From Chloroflexota bacterium (lineage in GTDB: Bacteria > Chloroflexota > Dehalococcoidia > UBA2979): a stretch of DNA of 32,479 bases. The stretch is from contig JAQCKI010000013.1 in the NCBI GenBank assembly GCA_027592645.1, positions 1 to 32,479 on the forward strand, given 5' to 3'. Numbering within the stretch: position 1 is the first letter of the stretch; every line of letters starts with the position of its first letter. The position numbers and the translations under genes were made by a program. A model generated the notes under the pieces. It had not been told where the DNA came from and ran no database searches. It worked only from the letters and a program-made list of their open reading frames with translations. Shown here piece after piece: positions 5,939 through 14,408 of the stretch.

Positions 5939-6604
5939 ATGACCAACAGCACCGGCCCGCGCAACCCGGATGCCGCGCCTGTCGTGGCGACGATCCTCGT
6001 GATCTTCGGGATCGTTGCGGGGCGCCTCCAGGTCCTGCTCGTCCACCGCTCCGCGGAACCGGAACGCGACCGCTGGGCGCTGCCGGGCGGGCGCTGGCGG
6101 GGCGACGAGTCGCTGGAGGGTGCCGCCCACCGCAACCTGGTGCGTGAGACGGGTGTCTCCGATCTCTACCTGGAGCAGTTGTTCACCACCTCCGGCCTGG
6201 ACCCACAGCACCCCTCGGTCGCCGTCGCCTACTTCGCGCTGGTCGAGGAGAGCAAGGTGCGCCTGCGCGAGGAGGAGGCCTGGCTGCCGGCGTGGCACCC
6301 GGTGGACGACCTCCCGGCGCTCGCCTTCGACAACAACCGCGTGATCGAGCAGGCCGTCCGCCGCGTAGGCGCGAAGCTGGACTACACCAACATCGCGTAC
6401 GGGCTCCTGCCCGAGGAGTTCACGCTGCGCCAACTCCAGACGGCGTACGAGGCGGTGCTCCGCGAACCCCTCGACCGCCGGAACTTCCGCAAGCGCATGA
6501 TCTCCACCGGCCTGATCGAGGCCGCGGGCGGCTCCCGCCGCGAAGGCGCGCACCGCCCGGCGACCCTCTACCGCTTCGTGAGCCGGGAGCCAGTCTTCCT
6601 GTAA
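5939..6604 (+). CDS. nrtR: NrtR-like Nudix-domain transcriptional regulator of NAD metabolism
   Basis: This 221-residue protein has an N-terminal Nudix domain (about 12-145) and a C-terminal winged-helix domain (about 155-218, LPEEFTLRQLQTAYEAVL, then PLDRRNFRKRM and RPATLYRF). This architecture is that of NrtR, a Nudix-derived repressor of NAD genes that senses ADP-ribose. The Nudix box runs from G51 to V73 but reads R65-N-L-V-R-E70 where an active enzyme has RExxEE. Two catalytic glutamates are replaced (N66, R69), which argues for ligand sensing rather than hydrolysis. The nad operon starts 3 kb downstream. The ATG at 5939 has no Shine-Dalgarno. The alternative is an ADP-ribose pyrophosphatase-like enzyme, made less likely by the box and the winged helix. 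The regulatory target is inferred. Confidence 0.8.
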   Translation: MTNSTGPRNPDAAPVVATILVIFGIVAGRLQVLLVHRSAEPERDRWALPGGRWRGDESLEGAAHRNLVRETGVSDLYLEQLFTTSGLDPQHPSVAVAYFALVEESKVRLREEEAWLPAWHPVDDLPALAFDNNRVIEQAVRRVGAKLDYTNIAYGLLPEEFTLRQLQTAYEAVLREPLDRRNFRKRMISTGLIEAAGGSRREGAHRPATLYRFVSREPVFL

Positions 6605-6668: not shown

Positions 6669-6929
6669 ATGGGTGCCAGTACCTCGAACCGGATCACCAT
6701 CGACCCCCAGGGACGCATCGTCATCCCGGCGGAGGTCCGCAAAGCGCGCGGCTGGAAGCCGGGCGACCGGATGGTTGTGGTGGAGATAGACGGCCTGCTC
6801 ACGATTCTGACGGCTGAAGAGGCCGGTCGCCGCGCCCAGGAGATCGTGATGCGCTACGTCCCGGCCGGTGTCAGCCTCGTAGACGAACTCCTCAAAGAGC
6901 GGCGCGAAGCGGCGGCACGGGGCGACTAG
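6669..6929 (+). CDS. AbrB/MazE/SpoVT-family antitoxin
   Basis: This is an 86-residue swapped-hairpin DNA-binding protein. The N-terminal domain (about 7-52) carries the family pattern ITIDPQGRIVIPAEVRKARGWKPGD followed by a beta-rich stretch. The C-terminal tail (about 53-86) is charged and helical and probably wraps the toxin. The downstream PIN-domain gene overlaps the stop by 1 base (TAGTG), the usual arrangement of a VapB/VapC pair. CGGAG at 6659-6663 serves as ribosome binding site. Function is assigned by family and by the toxin partner. Confidence 0.85.
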   Translation: MGASTSNRITIDPQGRIVIPAEVRKARGWKPGDRMVVVEIDGLLTILTAEEAGRRAQEIVMRYVPAGVSLVDELLKERREAAARGD

Positions 6930-7309
6930 TGCCCGCGTTCGTCCTGGATTCGTCCGCTGTCATCGCCTACCTGCATCGCGAGCCAGGATGGGAGGTAGCC
7001 GAGGAGTATGTCTTCGGTGACAGCGTAGTCAGCGCGGTCAATCTCGCGGAGATCATCACGAAACTACTCGCGCGCGGCACATCGGAAGCAGACATCCGTG
7101 TGGCCTTCGCCTTCGTGACGCTGACATCAACCGCCCTCACCGATGAGATTGCGTTCGAGGCCGGTCGGATCCACGCGGCGACGAGGCACCTCGGGTTGTC
7201 GATGGCGGACGCGGCCTGCGTGGCCACGGCGCGGGCGCTCGGAGCGACCGCGGTCACGGCCGACCGCACGTGGGCGGACCTGCCCGACGAGGTGCGGATC
7301 ATCCGCTAG
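6929..7309 (+). CDS. vapC: PIN-domain ribonuclease toxin, VapC family
   Basis: This 126-residue PIN-domain protein is expected to be a Mg2+-dependent ribonuclease inhibited by the preceding antitoxin. The four acidic positions of the active site are visible: D7 (VLDSSA), E41 (NLAEI), D94 (SMADAAC) and D112 (TADRTW). None is lost, so the toxin looks intact. The GTG start overlaps the antitoxin stop, coupling translation so that antitoxin is made first. VapC toxins typically cleave tRNA or rRNA; the target here cannot be predicted. Confidence 0.88.
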   Translation: MPAFVLDSSAVIAYLHREPGWEVAEEYVFGDSVVSAVNLAEIITKLLARGTSEADIRVAFAFVTLTSTALTDEIAFEAGRIHAATRHLGLSMADAACVATARALGATAVTADRTWADLPDEVRIIR

Positions 7310-7318: not shown

Positions 7319-8248
7319 ATGCCCCACGACCTCACGTTTGGTGTCCTGCCCGGCGGTAGCAGCCCGGCCGAGTTCCTTGCCGCCGCCCAGACGGCGGAGG
7401 CGCTCGGCTACGACTCCGTCTGGGTGGGCGACCACGTCCTCTGGCCGTCCTTCTGGCCATCTCCCCTCACGATGCTGGCCGCGGCGAGCGCGGTGACGGA
7501 GCGGGTGGGCCTCGGGACGGGCGTACTGCTCGCGGCGCTCCGCCGGCCGGCTGCGCTCGCCAAGGAGACCGCCACCCTGCAGTGGATGTCCGGCGGGCGC
7601 TTCCGCCTCGGTGTCGGGGCGGGGGGCGAGTACCCGAAGGAGTTCGAGGCCTCCGGGGTGCCGCTGGCAGAGCGCGGGCGCTACCTCGACGACACGCTCG
7701 AGGCGCTGACCGCGCTCTGGTCCGGGGAGCCCGCCTCCCTGCACAACCGTCAGATCGATGTCGACGATGCCACGCTCGACCTCGTGCCGGAGCCGCGCAT
7801 CCCCGTGTGGGTGGGTGGGCGCGCCCCGGCGGCGCAGCGTCGTGCCGCACAGTATGGCGACGCGTGGATGCCGTTCGTGATCACACCCGAGCGATTCGCC
7901 GAGGGCTGGGCGAACGTGCGCACCCGCGCCGAGGCGCTGGGACGCGACCCGGACGCGCTTGTGCCGGCGTTGCAGTTGTGGGGCCAGTTCGATGACGATC
8001 TCGCCGAGGCGCTCCCGACGATTGCCGCGCGGATCGAGGCGACGTACCGCGTCCCCTTCGATCGCTTCGAGCGGTACACGGTGTATGGCGATGCGGAGAT
8101 GTGGGCGGCACGCCTCGGTGAGTTCATGGACGCTGGCGTGCGGCACTTCAACTTCGTCTTCGCCGGCGGGGACCGATTGATGCAACTGACGCGGGTCGCG
8201 ACCGATGTGATCCCGCGACTCCAGGCGATCGACAGGGGAGGCGCATGA
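7319..8248 (+). CDS. LLM-class (luciferase-like, probably F420-dependent) oxidoreductase
   Basis: This is a 309-residue TIM-barrel protein of the bacterial luciferase superfamily. The typical pattern is visible: AQTAEALGYDSVWVGDHVLWP near the N-terminus, then RVGLGTGVLL, LDDTLEALTALWSGE and PRIPVWVGGRAPAAQRRAAQYGDAW. The subgroup resembles F420-dependent reductases more than FMN luciferases, but the cofactor and substrate are not defined by the sequence. It starts 9 bases after vapC and its stop overlaps the next gene by ATGA, so it is co-translated with the MFS transporter. A substrate shared by enzyme and transporter is plausible but unproven. Confidence 0.85.
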   Translation: MPHDLTFGVLPGGSSPAEFLAAAQTAEALGYDSVWVGDHVLWPSFWPSPLTMLAAASAVTERVGLGTGVLLAALRRPAALAKETATLQWMSGGRFRLGVGAGGEYPKEFEASGVPLAERGRYLDDTLEALTALWSGEPASLHNRQIDVDDATLDLVPEPRIPVWVGGRAPAAQRRAAQYGDAWMPFVITPERFAEGWANVRTRAEALGRDPDALVPALQLWGQFDDDLAEALPTIAARIEATYRVPFDRFERYTVYGDAEMWAARLGEFMDAGVRHFNFVFAGGDRLMQLTRVATDVIPRLQAIDRGGA

Positions 8249-9568
8249 CCCATACCGGTTCGACCACTCGACCGTTGGGAATGCGGATTCTGCCCAGGCG
8301 CTACTACTACGGATGGAACATCGCCGTCGCCGCTGCCGTGATGGGGATGGTGACCGCGGGCGTCGGCTACTACGGCCTGGCGGTCTTCTTGAAGCCACTG
8401 CAGGAGGAGCACGGCTGGTCCAATGCCGCCGTGTCCGGCGCCACCTCGATCTACTTCGTGATGACGGGCGTCTGGACGGCCTTCATTGGTCCTCAGATCA
8501 ACAAGTACGGCCCGAAGCGATTCCAGCTGATCGGCTTCACCTTGATCGGCCTGACGGCCGCATCAGTGCGGCTACGTCACCGCCCTCTGGCAGCTGTACG
8601 CGGTCTACATCACGCTGGCGCTCGGTTCCGGATTCGCCTCCGGCGTGGCGATCAACGCGATCATGTCGCGCTGGTTCGTGCGACGTCGAGCGCGCGCGAT
8701 GAGCGTCTCTTCCACGGGGGTCTCGTGGGGTGGCGTGATCCTCGCGCCGCTGGGCGCCGTCCTCGTGGAGCGCGGCGGCCTGGCACTGGCGACGCCGGTG
8801 CTCGGCGCGCTGGTGCTGATCGTGACGCTGCCGATCGTGCTCGGCGTGCTGGTCTTCGACCCGCGCAACGTGGGGCTGTTGCCCGATGGCGACAAGACCG
8901 AGGAGGAGGCGCGCGCGAAGACGCCGCAGAACTCCGCGCTCGGCGAGGCGACTCAGCGGCGGCGGTGGACGCTGAAGCAGGCGATGTCCACGCTGCCGTT
9001 CTGGGCGATCATCATCGCCTTCTCGCTGGTGCTCATGGCGCAGACCGGCTTCGTGATCCACCAGATCGCATTCCTGGAGGAACGCCTCGGCTCGCAGAGC
9101 GCGGCGGCGCGGGCGCTCTCGATCACGGCGCTCGGCAGCATCGTTGCGCGCCTGGCCATGGGCATGGTGGCGGACCAGATGGACAAGTGCTGGCTGACGG
9201 CCGGCGTGTTCGTGGTGCAGGCGGTCGCGGTGCTGCTCGTGCTGCGCGTCGAGGGCGCGTGGTCCACGTCCTTCTTCATCCTGCTGTTCGGGATGACCAT
9301 CGGGAACGTCTACATGCTGCAGTCGCTGCTGGTGAGCGAGATCTACGGCGTGGTCTCGTTTGGCGCCGTCTTCGGGATCATCAGCATGAGCGGGCAGATG
9401 GCGTCCGATTTCGGGCCGTTCGTCATCGGACTGTTGGATGACCGCACGGGCTCATACACGACGTCGTTCACGATCACCGCGACCGCCACACTGATCGCCG
9501 CCGTGGTGGTGCTGCTCGCGCGGCCGCTTCCACCGCCCCCACTGACCGAGGAGACCGCGAGCGCCTGA
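8245..9568 (+). pseudogene. MFS transporter interrupted by a frameshift
   Basis: The coding signal of a 12-helix major facilitator protein starts at ATG 8245 (RBS AGGGGAGG at 8235-8242, overlapping the previous stop by 4 bases). It reads normally to about 8564 (FTLIGLTAAS). It then continues one base later (CGYVTALWQLYAVYITLALG and onward) to the stop at 9566-9568. The crossover lies between the out-of-frame TGA at 8552-8554 and about 8570. One extra base near 8564-8566 explains it. Removing it would give an ordinary protein of about 440 residues, resembling the oxalate/formate-antiporter-like MFS group. Read literally, the first frame ends at 9441 as a nonsense tail. A sequencing error is as likely as a real mutation because the rest of the gene is well preserved. 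Confidence 0.82.
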
Positions 9569-9574
9569 CGTGCG

Positions 9575-9603
9575 TTGACACCCCCGGGGGGTAAGCGTAA
9601 GGT
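9575..9603 (+). promoter_or_regulatory. Promoter of the nad operon
   Basis: A perfect -35 TTGACA (9575-9580) is followed after 17 bases by TAAGGT (9598-9603). The predicted start is near 9610, inside or just before the palindrome at 9615-9639. The spacer contains the GC palindrome ACCCCC-G-GGGGGT (9580-9592), a possible second operator. Confidence 0.6.
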
Positions 9604-9614
9604 GAACACGAACC

Positions 9615-9639
9615 AGTTTGCGTAACAAGTACGCAAACT
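9615..9639 (+). promoter_or_regulatory. Perfect palindromic operator upstream of nadA
   Basis: AGTTTGCGTA (9615-9624) and its exact reverse complement TACGCAAACT (9630-9639) are separated by 5 bases. The site begins 11 bases after the proposed -10 and so covers the expected transcription start, a classical repressor position. The AT-rich arms stand out in GC-rich surroundings. A dimeric winged-helix repressor such as the NrtR-like protein encoded at 5939-6604 is the obvious candidate; no second copy was noticed in the window. Confidence 0.65.
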
Positions 9640-9697: not shown

Positions 9698-10915
9698 ATG
9701 GCACCGACCAATCCCATCACCCTCACCGCCGAGCGCTACCCGATCGCGCAACTCCAGTGCGAGACGGACACGGGGATCGAGACGATCCCGCTCAGCCAGG
9801 AAGTCGCCTTCGGCTCATGGCAGCCGGACATTCCGGCCGCGTACATGGATCTGGGTTCGGACGAACTGACGCGCCGCATCCACGCCGCCCGCGCGACGCT
9901 GGGCGACCGCGTCGTGATCCTCGGCCACCACTACCAGCGCGAGGACATCATCGCCTTCGCGGACGAACGCGGGGACTCCTTCCAACTGGCGCAGTACGCC
10001 GCGAACCGGGGTGAGTCGGAGTACATCGTGTTCTGTGGCGTGCACTTCATGGCGGAGGCGGCGGACGTGCTCCGCGCTCCGCACCAGCAGGTGATCCTGC
10101 CGAACATGGCCGCCGGCTGCTCGATGGCGGACATGGCCTCCGAGCCGGATGTGCATCGCGCCTGGGCCGAACTCAAGGAGTTCTACGGCTCCACGGATGA
10201 CATCATCCCCGTCACGTACATGAACTCCGCGGCCAGCCTGAAGGCGTTCTGTGGCGCCAACGGGGGCGTCGTCTGCACCTCCTCCAACGCGACGAAGGTG
10301 CTGGACTGGGCGTTCGAGCGCGGCAAGCGCGTCTTCTTCTTCCCTGACCAGCACCTGGGCCGCAACACCGGCCACGCCATGGGCATCACGCTGGACGAAA
10401 TGGTGCTGTGGAACTGGCGCACGCCCGCCGGCAACCTGGGCGGCGCCACTCCGGAGGCGCTGGAGCGCGCTCGCGTCATCCTCTGGCAGGGCCACTGCTC
10501 CGTGCACCAGCGGTTCACCGTCCAGCAGATCGAGCAGGCCCGTGTGGCCAACCCGGACGTGAAGATCGTCGTCCACCCGGAGTGCCGGTACGACGTGGTG
10601 CAGGCGGCGGACGCCAACGGCTCCACCGGCTACATCGTGAAGTACATCCAGGACGCCCCGGCTGGCTCCGTGATCGGCGTGGGCACCGAGATCAACCTGG
10701 TCTCCCGCCTGGCGAAGGAGCACCCGGACAAGACGATCTTCTGCCTGGACCCGGTGGTCTGCCCGTGCAGCACCATGTACCGCGTCCACCCGGCCTACCT
10801 GGCCTGGGTGATGGAGGAACTCGTCGCCGGTCGCGTCGTGAACCGCCTCGAAGTCCCCGAGCACCACCGCCGCGACGCCAAGGTCGCGCTCGATCGGATG
10901 CTTGCGCTGAAGTAG
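9698..10915 (+). CDS. nadA: Quinolinate synthase NadA
   Basis: NadA condenses iminoaspartate with dihydroxyacetone phosphate to quinolinate using a [4Fe-4S] cluster in de novo NAD synthesis. The 405-residue protein is the longer form of the family. Conserved stretches include ILGHHYQREDI (about 74-84), FCGVHFMAE with C113, VVCTSSNA with C193, FFPDQHLGRNTG, HPECRYDV and DPVVCPCSTMYR with C355. C113, C193 and C355 are the likely cluster ligands. GAGGTGG (9688-9694) lies just before the ATG. First gene of the nad operon, behind a strong promoter with an operator-like palindrome. Confidence 0.95.
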   Translation: MAPTNPITLTAERYPIAQLQCETDTGIETIPLSQEVAFGSWQPDIPAAYMDLGSDELTRRIHAARATLGDRVVILGHHYQREDIIAFADERGDSFQLAQYAANRGESEYIVFCGVHFMAEAADVLRAPHQQVILPNMAAGCSMADMASEPDVHRAWAELKEFYGSTDDIIPVTYMNSAASLKAFCGANGGVVCTSSNATKVLDWAFERGKRVFFFPDQHLGRNTGHAMGITLDEMVLWNWRTPAGNLGGATPEALERARVILWQGHCSVHQRFTVQQIEQARVANPDVKIVVHPECRYDVVQAADANGSTGYIVKYIQDAPAGSVIGVGTEINLVSRLAKEHPDKTIFCLDPVVCPCSTMYRVHPAYLAWVMEELVAGRVVNRLEVPEHHRRDAKVALDRMLALK

Positions 10916-10961: not shown

Positions 10962-11420
10962 ATGCCTGAGTTCCGCTTCGAGGGGCGCTATCCCCTCCGT
11001 CACACGGACGCCTTCGGTGGGACCCCGTTCGTCCACGGTGGCGTGCTTCTCGCGCTCACCGAGATCGCGCTCGACGCCTACGACCGTGAGGCCGGCGTTC
11101 CGAGCCACCGCGAGGTGCTGCGCTTCCAGGCATCGTCCGAGGTGCGCTACCTGTCGCCGCTGCGCTGGGACGACGCCGCCATCGTACGGCTGCGCTGCGC
11201 CGAGGTGCGCCCGGGCCGCCTGCGCTTCGAGTGCGAAGTGGCCGCCGCGAGCGACGGGCGCGCAGTCGCGCGATTCACGCACCGCTATGTCTACGTGAAC
11301 GCCCAGAATGGACGCCCCGAGACCCCCGCCGACTGGCAGGCGATCGTGCGCGCGATCCGCTCGTTCGAGCCGGCTGTCGAGGTGCTCGACGAGGACGCCG
11401 CTCGGGCCCAGCGACCGTGA
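10962..11420 (+). CDS. Hotdog-fold acyl-CoA thioesterase-like protein
   Basis: This 152-residue protein of the 4HBT/YbgC-like hotdog superfamily has its core at about residues 5-125. The long helix pattern TPFVHGGVLLALTEIALDAYD is preceded by LRHTDAFG, matching the usual D-containing loop. The strands VLRFQASSEVRYLSPLRW and FTHRYVYVN follow. Thioester hydrolysis of an acyl-CoA is the family activity, but the substrate is unknown. GAGGA (10951-10955) precedes the ATG by 6 bases. It lies between nadA (46-base gap) and nadB (4-base overlap), so it is expressed as part of the NAD operon, although no thioesterase belongs to the known pathway. Confidence 0.8.
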   Translation: MPEFRFEGRYPLRHTDAFGGTPFVHGGVLLALTEIALDAYDREAGVPSHREVLRFQASSEVRYLSPLRWDDAAIVRLRCAEVRPGRLRFECEVAAASDGRAVARFTHRYVYVNAQNGRPETPADWQAIVRAIRSFEPAVEVLDEDAARAQRP

Positions 11421-12982
11421 CGAGCCGTGCCGATTACGACCTGATCGTGGTGGGGTCTGGCATCGCCGGGCTATATGCGGCGATCCAGGCGAAGGAGGAG
11501 GGCGCGCGCGTCCTTGTCGTCACCAAGGCCGGCATCGGCGAAGCGAGCACCCGGTACGCCCAGGGCGGCATCGCCGCCGCCGTGGGCGAGGGCGACTCGC
11601 CCGAGGAACACCTGCAGGACACGCTGGAGGCCGGCGCCGGCCTCGTTGACGAAGAGGCGGCACGCATCCTGGTGTACGAGGCCGCCGACCGGATCGCCGA
11701 CCTCGTGCGGTACGGGGTGCAGTTCGACTCCTCGAACGGCGAGGTGTCACTTGGGCGGGAGGCGGCGCACTCGCGCTCGCGCATCCTGCACGCCCGAGGC
11801 GATGCGACCGGGCTGGAGATCGAGCTCTCGCTCTCATCGCTCGCGCAGCGCGAGGTGGTGATCCTCGAACACACGCTCGCGGACCGGCTGCTGGTCGAAG
11901 GCGGGCGCATCGCGGGGGTGGAGGTGTTCACGCGCACCACCGGCGAGCACCGCATCTACACGGCGGGCACGGTGGTGCTCGCCACCGGCGGCGCCGGCCA
12001 GATGTACCGCACCACCACGAATCCGCTGATCTCCACCGGCGACGGCGTCGCAATCGCCTACGAGGCAGGCGCCGAGGTGCTGGACATGGAGTTCACGCAA
12101 TTCCACCCGACGGCGCTGGTGATCCCGGGCCAGCCGGTCTTCCTGATCTCCGAGGCGGTCCGGGGCGAAGGCGCCCTCCTATTCAACACCCGCGGCGAAC
12201 GCTTCATGACGAAGTACGACCCCACTCGTGCCGAACTGGCGCCGCGCGACGTGGTCGCTCGCGCCGCGGTGCGCGAGATGGCGGAGACGGGCGCAGCGCA
12301 CGTGCTGCTGGACATCACCGACCGCGACGACGCATGGCTGGCGGCACGCTTCCCGCAGATCTACGCGAAGTGCCTGGAGGCCGGCCTGGACATGGCGCGC
12401 GACCGCGTGCCCGTCTCGCCCGCCGCGCATTACACGATGGGTGGCGTCCGCACGAACACCTGGGGCGAGACCACCCTCCCCGGCCTCTTCGTGGTCGGCG
12501 AGGCGGCCTGTACCGGCGTGCACGGTGCCAACCGGCTGGCGAGCAACTCACTGCTGGAGACCGTGGTTTTCGCTCACCGCGCCGTGGAGCGCCTGCTGCA
12601 CCCGCCCAGCCCGGTGCCACCACCGCCCGAGCCCGCCACCAACGCCATCGACCTCGCCCCGCTGGATCCGGACGGGCACGTCCCCACGGCGGCGGAAGTG
12701 AAGGAACTGATGTGGCAGGACGTGGGCATCGTGCGCAGCGGTGAGAGCCTGCAGCGCGCATCCTCCACGCTCCGCCGCTGGGCCGCCTCGATCCCGCGAC
12801 CGGCCGACCGCGATGGGTACGAGTTGCGCTCGATCGTCACGTGCGCTCGACTGGCCTCGGAGGCTGCGCTGCTTCGCGAGGAGTCGCGCGGCGCGCACTA
12901 CCGCACCGACTTCCCCGAGCCGCTCGATGACTGGCGGCGGCACATCGTGTTCCGCAAGGACGCCGCAGGAGGCACCGCATGA
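11417..12982 (+). CDS. nadB: L-aspartate oxidase NadB
   Basis: This FAD enzyme oxidises L-aspartate to iminoaspartate, the substrate of NadA. The 521-residue protein starts with the dinucleotide fold YDLIVVGSGIAGLYAA. It contains the flavoprotein segments STRYAQGGIAAAVG, VVLATGGAGQMY and EFTQFHPTAL. It ends the catalytic part with HYTMGGVRTNTWGETTLPGLF and GEAACTGVHGANRLASNSLLE; the C-terminal helical domain follows. The length is usual for NadB, and the pattern together with the nad context excludes succinate dehydrogenase. The GTG at 11417 overlaps the thioesterase stop; an upstream extension of the frame would run inside that gene. Confidence 0.95.
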   Translation: MTSRADYDLIVVGSGIAGLYAAIQAKEEGARVLVVTKAGIGEASTRYAQGGIAAAVGEGDSPEEHLQDTLEAGAGLVDEEAARILVYEAADRIADLVRYGVQFDSSNGEVSLGREAAHSRSRILHARGDATGLEIELSLSSLAQREVVILEHTLADRLLVEGGRIAGVEVFTRTTGEHRIYTAGTVVLATGGAGQMYRTTTNPLISTGDGVAIAYEAGAEVLDMEFTQFHPTALVIPGQPVFLISEAVRGEGALLFNTRGERFMTKYDPTRAELAPRDVVARAAVREMAETGAAHVLLDITDRDDAWLAARFPQIYAKCLEAGLDMARDRVPVSPAAHYTMGGVRTNTWGETTLPGLFVVGEAACTGVHGANRLASNSLLETVVFAHRAVERLLHPPSPVPPPPEPATNAIDLAPLDPDGHVPTAAEVKELMWQDVGIVRSGESLQRASSTLRRWAASIPRPADRDGYELRSIVTCARLASEAALLREESRGAHYRTDFPEPLDDWRRHIVFRKDAAGGTA

Positions 12983-13869
12983 CCGACCCGACCACCCACC
13001 ATCCCGCCACGGAGACGGTCGCGGAGATCGTCGCGCTGGCGCTCGCCGAAGACCGTGTGGCGTTCGACGTGACCACGCGCGCGACCGTGCCGGCCGATCA
13101 GCCGGGCGAGGCGACGCTGCTCTACAAGCAGTCGGGCGTGGTGTGCGGCCTGGTGGTGTTCGCGGAGGCGTTCGCGCAGGTCTCCCCGGACGTGGAGGTG
13201 GAACTGCTGGTCGATGAGGGCCAGTGGGTGAAGGCGGGCACCACCGCCGCGGAGATCAGCGGGCCGCTGGCCGCCATCCTCTCCGCCGAGCGCGTGGCGT
13301 TGAACCTGCTACAGCGGATGTCGGGCATCGCCACGCTGACGCAGGAATACGTCGACAAGGCGAATGACGGTGGCGAGGCGCGCGTGGTGGACACGCGCAA
13401 GACCACGCCCGGCCTGCGCGCGCTCGAGCGCTACGCGGTGCGCATCGGCGGAGCGCACAACCATCGCAACACGCTGGAGGACGGCGTCCTGATCAAAGAC
13501 AACCACCTGGCCGCCGCCGCCGCGCGCGGGGTGGACATCGCCGCCCTCATCGCGGAGGTGCGCGAACGTGTGCCTCATACGCTGCGGATCGAGGTCGAGG
13601 TCACGTCCGAGGAGATGGCGCGCGACGCGCTCCGCGGCGGCGCGGACGTGGTGATGCTGGACAACATGCCACCCGACGCGATGGCGGCCGTGGTCTCCGA
13701 GACACGATCCAACCCCGCCTACGCACGCGTGCTGTTCGAGGCTTCCGGTGGGATCACGCTGGACACGATCAAGCAGGTCTCCGCGACCGGCGTCGACCTG
13801 ATCTCGTGCGGCGCGCTGACGCACTCGGCGCCGGCGCTGGACATCTCGCTGGATGTGCGGCCCGCATGA
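12979..13869 (+). CDS. nadC: Nicotinate-nucleotide pyrophosphorylase (quinolinate phosphoribosyltransferase) NadC
   Basis: NadC converts quinolinate and PRPP to nicotinate mononucleotide and CO2, completing the shared de novo route. The 296-residue length is standard. Recognisable segments are LALAEDRVAFDVTTRATVP, ERVALNLLQRMSGIAT, RVVDTRKTTPGLRALERYAV, GGAHNHRNTLEDGVLIKDNH and the C-terminal FEASGGITLDTI and GVDLISCGALTHS. These contain the Arg/Lys/His residues that bind quinolinate and PRPP. It overlaps nadB by ATGA and the kinase gene by ATGA. Confidence 0.95.
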   Translation: MTDPTTHHPATETVAEIVALALAEDRVAFDVTTRATVPADQPGEATLLYKQSGVVCGLVVFAEAFAQVSPDVEVELLVDEGQWVKAGTTAAEISGPLAAILSAERVALNLLQRMSGIATLTQEYVDKANDGGEARVVDTRKTTPGLRALERYAVRIGGAHNHRNTLEDGVLIKDNHLAAAAARGVDIAALIAEVRERVPHTLRIEVEVTSEEMARDALRGGADVVMLDNMPPDAMAAVVSETRSNPAYARVLFEASGGITLDTIKQVSATGVDLISCGALTHSAPALDISLDVRPA

Positions 13870-14408
13870 ACCAGGTGATCCTGCTCTCTGGCCCTCCCGG
13901 CTCAGGGAAGTCATCGGTCGCGGAGGCGCTCTGCGAGCGCTTCGACCGGATGATCCACATCGAAGTGGACGACCTGCGCCACTGGGTGAAGGCGGGCTAC
14001 CGCCGCCCGTGGGACGGCGATCAGCAAGCAGCGGAGCAAATCGAACTCGCCGCCCGCAACGCCTCGGCGATCGCACGCGAGAGCATCGCCATGCGCTACG
14101 CGGTCGTGATCACGGACGTGGTGCTGGGCGCGGCCATCGAGCACTATCGGGCCGCGTTGCAGGACATCGGCGTACCGGTGCACCTCGTCACATTGCTACC
14201 GGGCATCGAGGAGACGCAGCGACGCGACGCTCTGCGCGACCACTCGATCCCCGAGCGGGCGCGCGAAGTGCACGAGGAGATTGCGGCCGCGATCCGCGCC
14301 GGCACCATGCCCGGTGCCATCCTCGACACTACCGGGGATGCGGACGCCTGGGTCACCGGCGACCGCGTGCAGGACGTGGTCTCGCGGGGCCTCGCCGTCT
14401 TCATCTAA
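13866..14408 (+). CDS. Small P-loop kinase (AAA_33-like) coupled to nadC
   Basis: This 180-residue P-loop NTPase has a Walker A motif, GPPGSGKSS, at residues 9-17. It resembles small-molecule kinases of the adenylylsulfate/chloramphenicol phosphotransferase type. A candidate substrate-binding acidic pair occurs in HIEVDDLRHW. An Arg-rich lid-like segment TQRRDALRDHSIPERAREVHEEI lies near residues 120-142. The ATG shares ATGA with the nadC stop, so it belongs to the NAD operon. A role in phosphorylating a pyridine nucleoside (as nicotinamide riboside kinases do) is possible, but no specific signature supports it. The downstream repeat and terminator end the operon. Confidence 0.78.
   Translation: MNQVILLSGPPGSGKSSVAEALCERFDRMIHIEVDDLRHWVKAGYRRPWDGDQQAAEQIELAARNASAIARESIAMRYAVVITDVVLGAAIEHYRAALQDIGVPVHLVTLLPGIEETQRRDALRDHSIPERAREVHEEIAAAIRAGTMPGAILDTTGDADAWVTGDRVQDVVSRGLAVFI

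Follow-up and report, generated by a model that had tools for sequence, protein, structure and literature searches.

An NrtR-family protein as the very probable regulator of NAD synthesis in an uncultured Dehalococcoidia family

Introduction

The stretch of DNA analysed here (32,479 nucleotides, referred to as a whole as the window) carries a gene for a Nudix protein whose end lies 3.1 kb before the start of nadA. This arrangement raises the question of whether the protein regulates NAD synthesis, and of which genes it might control and which signal it might answer. The original prediction described an NrtR-like regulator with a decayed Nudix active site and a local NAD regulon; it proposed a profile search against NrtR and a comparison of the nad promoters with those of orthologous genomes. 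The protein and its candidate operators were analysed in the window, in the source assembly (2.15 Mb, 87.5% complete), and in 60 related genomes. The results indicate that the protein, called NrtR below, very probably switches the NAD-synthesis genes of this uncultured Chloroflexota group on and off.

Results

Domain organization and fold of the protein

The nrtR gene (5939-6604, forward strand) encodes a protein of 221 residues. Two Pfam profiles match it above their cut-offs: NUDIX PF00293 (55.2 bits, cut-off 21.1; residues 23-135) and NrtR_WHD PF21906 (86.6 bits, cut-off 27; residues 155-213). The Nudix domain extends from about residue 16 to 145 and is fused to a C-terminal NrtR winged helix at about 149-215, as in the NrtR family. 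The AlphaFold2 model, made with 30 homologues, has a mean pLDDT of 87.4 and a pTM of 0.84. Its best folds in the PDB are BtAraR (5bs6, TM 0.83) and the SoNrtR-DNA complex (3gz6, TM 0.80), both matched along the length of the model; the NadQ fold is a poorer match than either. The profile search and the full-length fold match thus confirm the layout given by the original prediction, and the protein is a member of the NrtR family. Its score against the NCBIfam equivalog NF050029, the ADPR-responsive repressor NtrR, is 147.7 bits, far under the cut-off of 400; this model appears to be tuned to a narrow clade. The closest named relatives, with 84% identity, come from metagenome-assembled Chloroflexota, several of them labelled Dehalococcoidia (HGW-Chloroflexi-9 and others).

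The genome assembly encodes no PF21906 protein other than NrtR, and a profile search of the same assembly gave no NiaR-type 3H domain, which speaks against NiaR as an alternative NAD regulator. It should be mentioned that a second regulator could be hidden from view, since the assembly is 87.5% complete.

Nudix box

The Nudix box (6089-6154, forward strand) reads G51-x5-E57-x7-R65-N66-L67-V68-R69-E70-T-G72. When it is compared with the signature GX5EX7REUXEEXGU, the glutamate of "RE" is replaced by Asn66 and the first glutamate of "EE" by Arg69. The loss of two catalytic acids, as originally predicted, is therefore seen in the translation. In an alignment of 28 family orthologs, residue 66 is lysine in 25 sequences, asparagine in three, and glutamate in none, and residue 69 varies among E, D, Q, R, and G. 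Glu70 and Gly72 are invariant, and Glu57 is substituted in nine of the 28 sequences. An impaired signature is usual in NrtR regulators, several of which are inactive (PMC4666351, PMC6800001, PMC12735969). The description of the site as "decayed" holds for the missing acids but not as a peculiarity of this protein: the loss of catalytic acids in the orthologs, in SoNrtR, and in published NrtRs indicates a family trait rather than a dying gene. The residues suggest that Nudix catalysis has been lost.

Some features might still point to a protein that is mainly an enzyme, namely an ADP-ribose hydrolase of the Nudix type whose remaining activity would supply ribose-5-phosphate recycling. Both Glu57 and Glu70 are kept here, the latter throughout the family, and the EE pair is complete in many relatives. 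This role is extremely improbable when it is set against the lysine or asparagine at residue 66 in every family sequence, the inactivity of tested NrtRs with comparable changes (PMC6800001, PMC12735969), the strong winged-helix domain, and the conserved regulon described below. An intact RELLEE box is present in a distantly related NrtR-like protein from Cohnella sp. JJ-181 (L087:10001-10720), which is possibly still catalytic.

The nad operon and its promoter

The predicted target genes follow on the forward strand. They are nadA for quinolinate synthase (9698-10915; Pfam NadA 322 bits, TIGR00550 above cut-off), nadB for L-aspartate oxidase (about 11417-12982; TIGR00551 535 bits, cut-off 453), and nadC for quinolinate phosphoribosyltransferase (12979-13869; TIGR00078 307.6 bits, cut-off 198). 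A hotdog thioesterase-like gene (10962-11420; Pfam 4HBT_2 36.9 bits) lies between nadA and nadB, and its stop is overlapped by the GTG start of nadB, as read from the sequence. A P-loop kinase-like gene (13866-14408; Pfam AAA_33 52.7 bits) overlaps the nadC stop.

Upstream of nadA, a perfect dyad with arms of 10+10 bp, AGTTTGCGTA-ACAAG-TACGCAAACT, occupies 9615-9639 and is the main predicted NrtR operator. Its arms are 100% complementary, and no match was obtained in 100 shuffles of the window. The prediction that nadA-nadB-nadC lie about 3 kb away behind a palindrome is thus borne out, with the genes identified by Pfam and NCBIfam. The predicted nadA promoter (9575-9603, forward strand) consists of TTGACA (9575-9580), a 17-nt spacer, and TAAGGT (9598-9603). 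A weaker tandem box, TAAGCGTA-AGGTG-AACACGAA (9592-9612, forward strand), has three mismatches and overlaps the predicted -10. A sigma-70 scan gave no above-threshold site at nadA; the promoter prediction therefore relies on the conserved TTGAC spacing described below. At nadE, the scan gave one above-threshold site, TTGACG-18-TACCAT. In the spacer between the predicted nadA -35 and -10, there is also a short G+C palindrome, ACCCCCGGGGGGT (9579-9592).

The order miaB-nrtR-...-nadA-(hotdog)-nadB-nadC-P-loop kinase is kept in relatives, in several of which nrtR adjoins nadA. About half of the relatives with this synteny have the hotdog gene between nadA and nadB, and the kinase gene keeps its position after nadC. 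That these two gene products act in NAD metabolism, for example in the repair or phosphorylation of pyridine precursors, is a tentative idea that we consider doubtful; if it were true, the regulon would be broader than any described for NrtR that we know of.

In the window, miaB and nrtR are separated by about 41 bases, and nrtR is probably co-transcribed with miaB. No operator was found before nrtR in the window within three mismatches; autoregulation is therefore not indicated. Two further features were observed between nrtR and nadA. First, genes for an AbrB/MazE-type antitoxin (6669-6929) and a PIN toxin (6929-7309) are inserted between nrtR and a luciferase-like gene; this pair is absent there in two relatives of the same genus (L069 and L070), in which the gap is about 43 bases instead. 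Second, a major-facilitator transporter gene (8245-9568) is split by a frameshift into two frames, starting at 8245 and covering 8645-9568, respectively. Its halves appear in one frame in L069, and the frameshift is either an assembly error or a recent pseudogene.

Recurrence of the palindrome at nadE

Before a motif was derived, the exact palindrome of the window served as the query against the source genome, with up to three mismatches tolerated. Only two sites matched: the nadA promoter and, on another contig, C102:21151-21173. The reversed palindrome, used as a control in the same search, gave no match. The second site lies about 40 bp upstream of nadE, the gene for glutamine-dependent NAD synthetase (NF010588 540 bits, cut-off 479). 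Since the query contained nothing about nadE, this match is independent support for an operator of NAD genes. Palindromic operators upstream of NAD-metabolism genes, as known for NrtR, are thus present at both nadA and nadE and are kept in the family. The original idea of a local NAD regulon stands in substance, as the palindrome recurs at nadE and is conserved; it is not only local, as nadE sits on a different contig. A further search of this genome for regulon members, again with up to three mismatches, returned the two operators, the tandem box, and three more three-mismatch matches. These three were rejected as regulon members, since the reversed control gave 13.

Conservation of the operators in the family

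Inspection of nadA upstream regions led to the operator pattern TTwGyGTA-N5-TACrCwAA. The 60 related genomes were scanned with it, allowing at most one mismatch, and sites were assigned by the coordinates of nadA, nadE, and local ORFs. There are 53 sites across 33 genomes of the family, in which the reversed pattern matched 13 places. The sites comprise 28 at nadA (partly circular counts, as is that of the one second nadA box, because the pattern itself derives from nadA regions), and 22 at nadE and one before hotdog-nadB, neither of which is circular; the last one lies before a glutamate synthase gene. Accordingly, nad genes account for 52 of the 53 sites. The comparison of nad promoters therefore came out as the original prediction implied: the dyad is kept at nadA and nadE across the family. 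The hotdog-nadB site is found in G015 (L159), where an ORF on the opposite strand splits nadA from hotdog-nadB and the separated half has a perfect site of its own. This would be expected if control of each nad transcription unit is the trait under selection.

The glutamate synthase site belongs to G006, a reduced family member without glutamine-dependent nadE. It is a perfect NrtR-type dyad at L158:1845-1865 (C13:7344-7364), 24 bases before the gene, and might be there by chance or as a changed regulon member. As targets, both this site and one in G042 were rejected: they are single cases near the background rate.

The distance from the TTGAC of the -35 to the operator is nearly fixed in the family: both elements were scored at 44 loci, and at 41 of these the operator starts 41-46 nt after TTGAC (about 0.3% by chance per site). 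In 17 nadA loci, the main box is accompanied by a weaker one 24-26 nt upstream, over the -10; the nadE promoters have one box only. Boxes over and just past the predicted transcription start are at positions where a bound protein represses. This placement, together with the behaviour of known NrtRs, suggests repression rather than activation.

Co-occurrence of regulator and motif

Outside the family, the related dyad TTnGTGT-N7-ACACnAA, with 0-1 further mismatches, precedes nadA in four NrtR-positive genomes of the same class (G050, G054, G056, and G059); in G050, such a dyad also lies 14 bases before a separate nadB. None of the four has a nadE site, and control of nadE therefore seems to have been added within the family. 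No dyad was found at nadA in three NrtR-negative genomes that have this gene (G036, G048, and G057). Among all genomes, the motif is present in 33 of 39 NrtR-positive and 2 of 21 NrtR-negative ones; these counts are not corrected for the kinship of the genomes. One NrtR-negative family genome, G012, has a nadE site; this is explained by its incompleteness (77% complete).

The co-inheritance of regulator and motif bears on whether the palindrome might belong to another regulator, with NrtR as a neighbour by synteny only. The link between protein and operator is drawn indirectly, and the window contains no box for nrtR; both points would agree with such a case. On the other hand, NrtR and the motif co-occur within and beyond the family, the three NrtR-negative genomes have no site at nadA, and neither NiaR nor a second PF21906 protein was found in the assembly. 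Ownership by a different regulator is thus very unlikely, and we infer that NrtR itself binds the predicted operator.

Discussion

Proposed mechanism

With high confidence, we consider the protein to be an NrtR-family repressor of NAD synthesis that acts through the operators at nadA and nadE. A dimer of NrtR would bind the dyad that closely follows the -10 of the nadA(-hotdog-nadBC) promoter, where the weaker tandem box over the -10 might assist binding, and would bind the operator at the nadE promoter likewise. The bound protein would block transcription of both units. The Nudix domain seems to sense a ligand that it no longer hydrolyses; by homology, this might be ADP-ribose or else NAD or a similar nucleotide. 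Once bound, the ligand would turn the winged helices off the DNA and release the genes while NAD is consumed.

ADP-ribose is the best guess for the signal, judged from characterised relatives, and the main alternative is an NrtR-type regulator of nadABC and nadE with a different ligand: NAD, or another nucleotide or a sugar phosphate, as in NdnR of Corynebacterium glutamicum (NAD) and AraR of Bacteroides (L-arabinose). Ligands do vary among members of the family (PMC4666351), both sequence and fold match BtAraR best, and the score against the ADP-ribose equivalog model is far under its cut-off. However, all targets belong to NAD synthesis, and the NrtRs characterised for this pathway use ADP-ribose (PMC6800001, PMC12735969) or NAD; arabinose genes are absent among the targets. 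Furthermore, SoNrtR has the same RK-type change and binds ADP-ribose (structure 3gz8). A ligand other than ADP-ribose is thus rather unlikely. ADP-ribose is retained as the presumed signal.

Novelty of the regulon

In the papers examined, no published NrtR regulon was found for this Dehalococcoidia family; a collection for Chloroflexi exists in RegPrecise (PMC3840689). As far as this literature shows, the operator TTwGyGTA-N5-TACrCwAA, the weaker tandem box at nadA, and the membership of nadE in the regulon of this family are new. NrtR control of NAD synthesis is thereby extended, with a defined operator, to an uncultured Dehalococcoidia family, within which the last step (nadE) appears to have been drawn into the regulon; relatives outside keep nadA or nadB only. 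The DNA fragments with the nadA and nadE sites could serve directly as a pair for tests. The system adds a branch to one already known and is not of a new kind, and the general picture of NrtR is unchanged.

Comparison with known systems

NdnR of C. glutamicum represses a nad gene cluster. This actinobacterial member of the NrtR family, likened here by its description, responds to NAD (PMC4666351).

NadQ (7q91-7q94) has a C-terminal winged helix homologous to that of NrtR but a different N-terminal domain; its targets are nadABC, joined in some lineages by nadE and nadD (PMC5343134). Its operator, ttATRCTCannntGAGYATaa, is unlike the dyad found here. Identity with NadQ was rejected: the N-terminus here is a Nudix domain, and the NadQ sequence match is confined to residues 130-214. 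BtAraR of Bacteroides thetaiotaomicron (5bs6; 125 bits) is the best match among solved structures, but it controls arabinose genes and binds L-arabinose (PMC4666351), whereas the targets here are NAD genes. Identity with AraR was rejected, as 52 of the 53 family sites lie at nad genes.

SoNrtR of Shewanella oneidensis (3gz5, 3gz6, 3gz8) is about 35% identical to the present protein and matches its fold over the whole length. In the alignment, its Nudix box reads R-K-L-A-E-K, in which the first acid is likewise missing, and the structure of its ADP-ribose-bound domain is known. No regulon of nadABC plus nadE was found described for it in the literature examined.

MsNrtR of Mycobacterium smegmatis likewise combines a Nudix domain and a winged helix, with a degenerate Nudix box and no hydrolase activity, and represses the adjoining nadA-nadB-nadC through a palindromic operator similar in length to the predicted one (PMC6800001). 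The operators differ in detail: GTTTTCGA-N7-TCGAAAAC for MsNrtR and TTwGyGTA-N5-TACrCwAA here. The mycobacterial protein is autoregulated, repressing its own gene (PMC6800001), whereas nrtR has no box before it in the window; and nadE is a predicted target here, unlike in the MsNrtR system.
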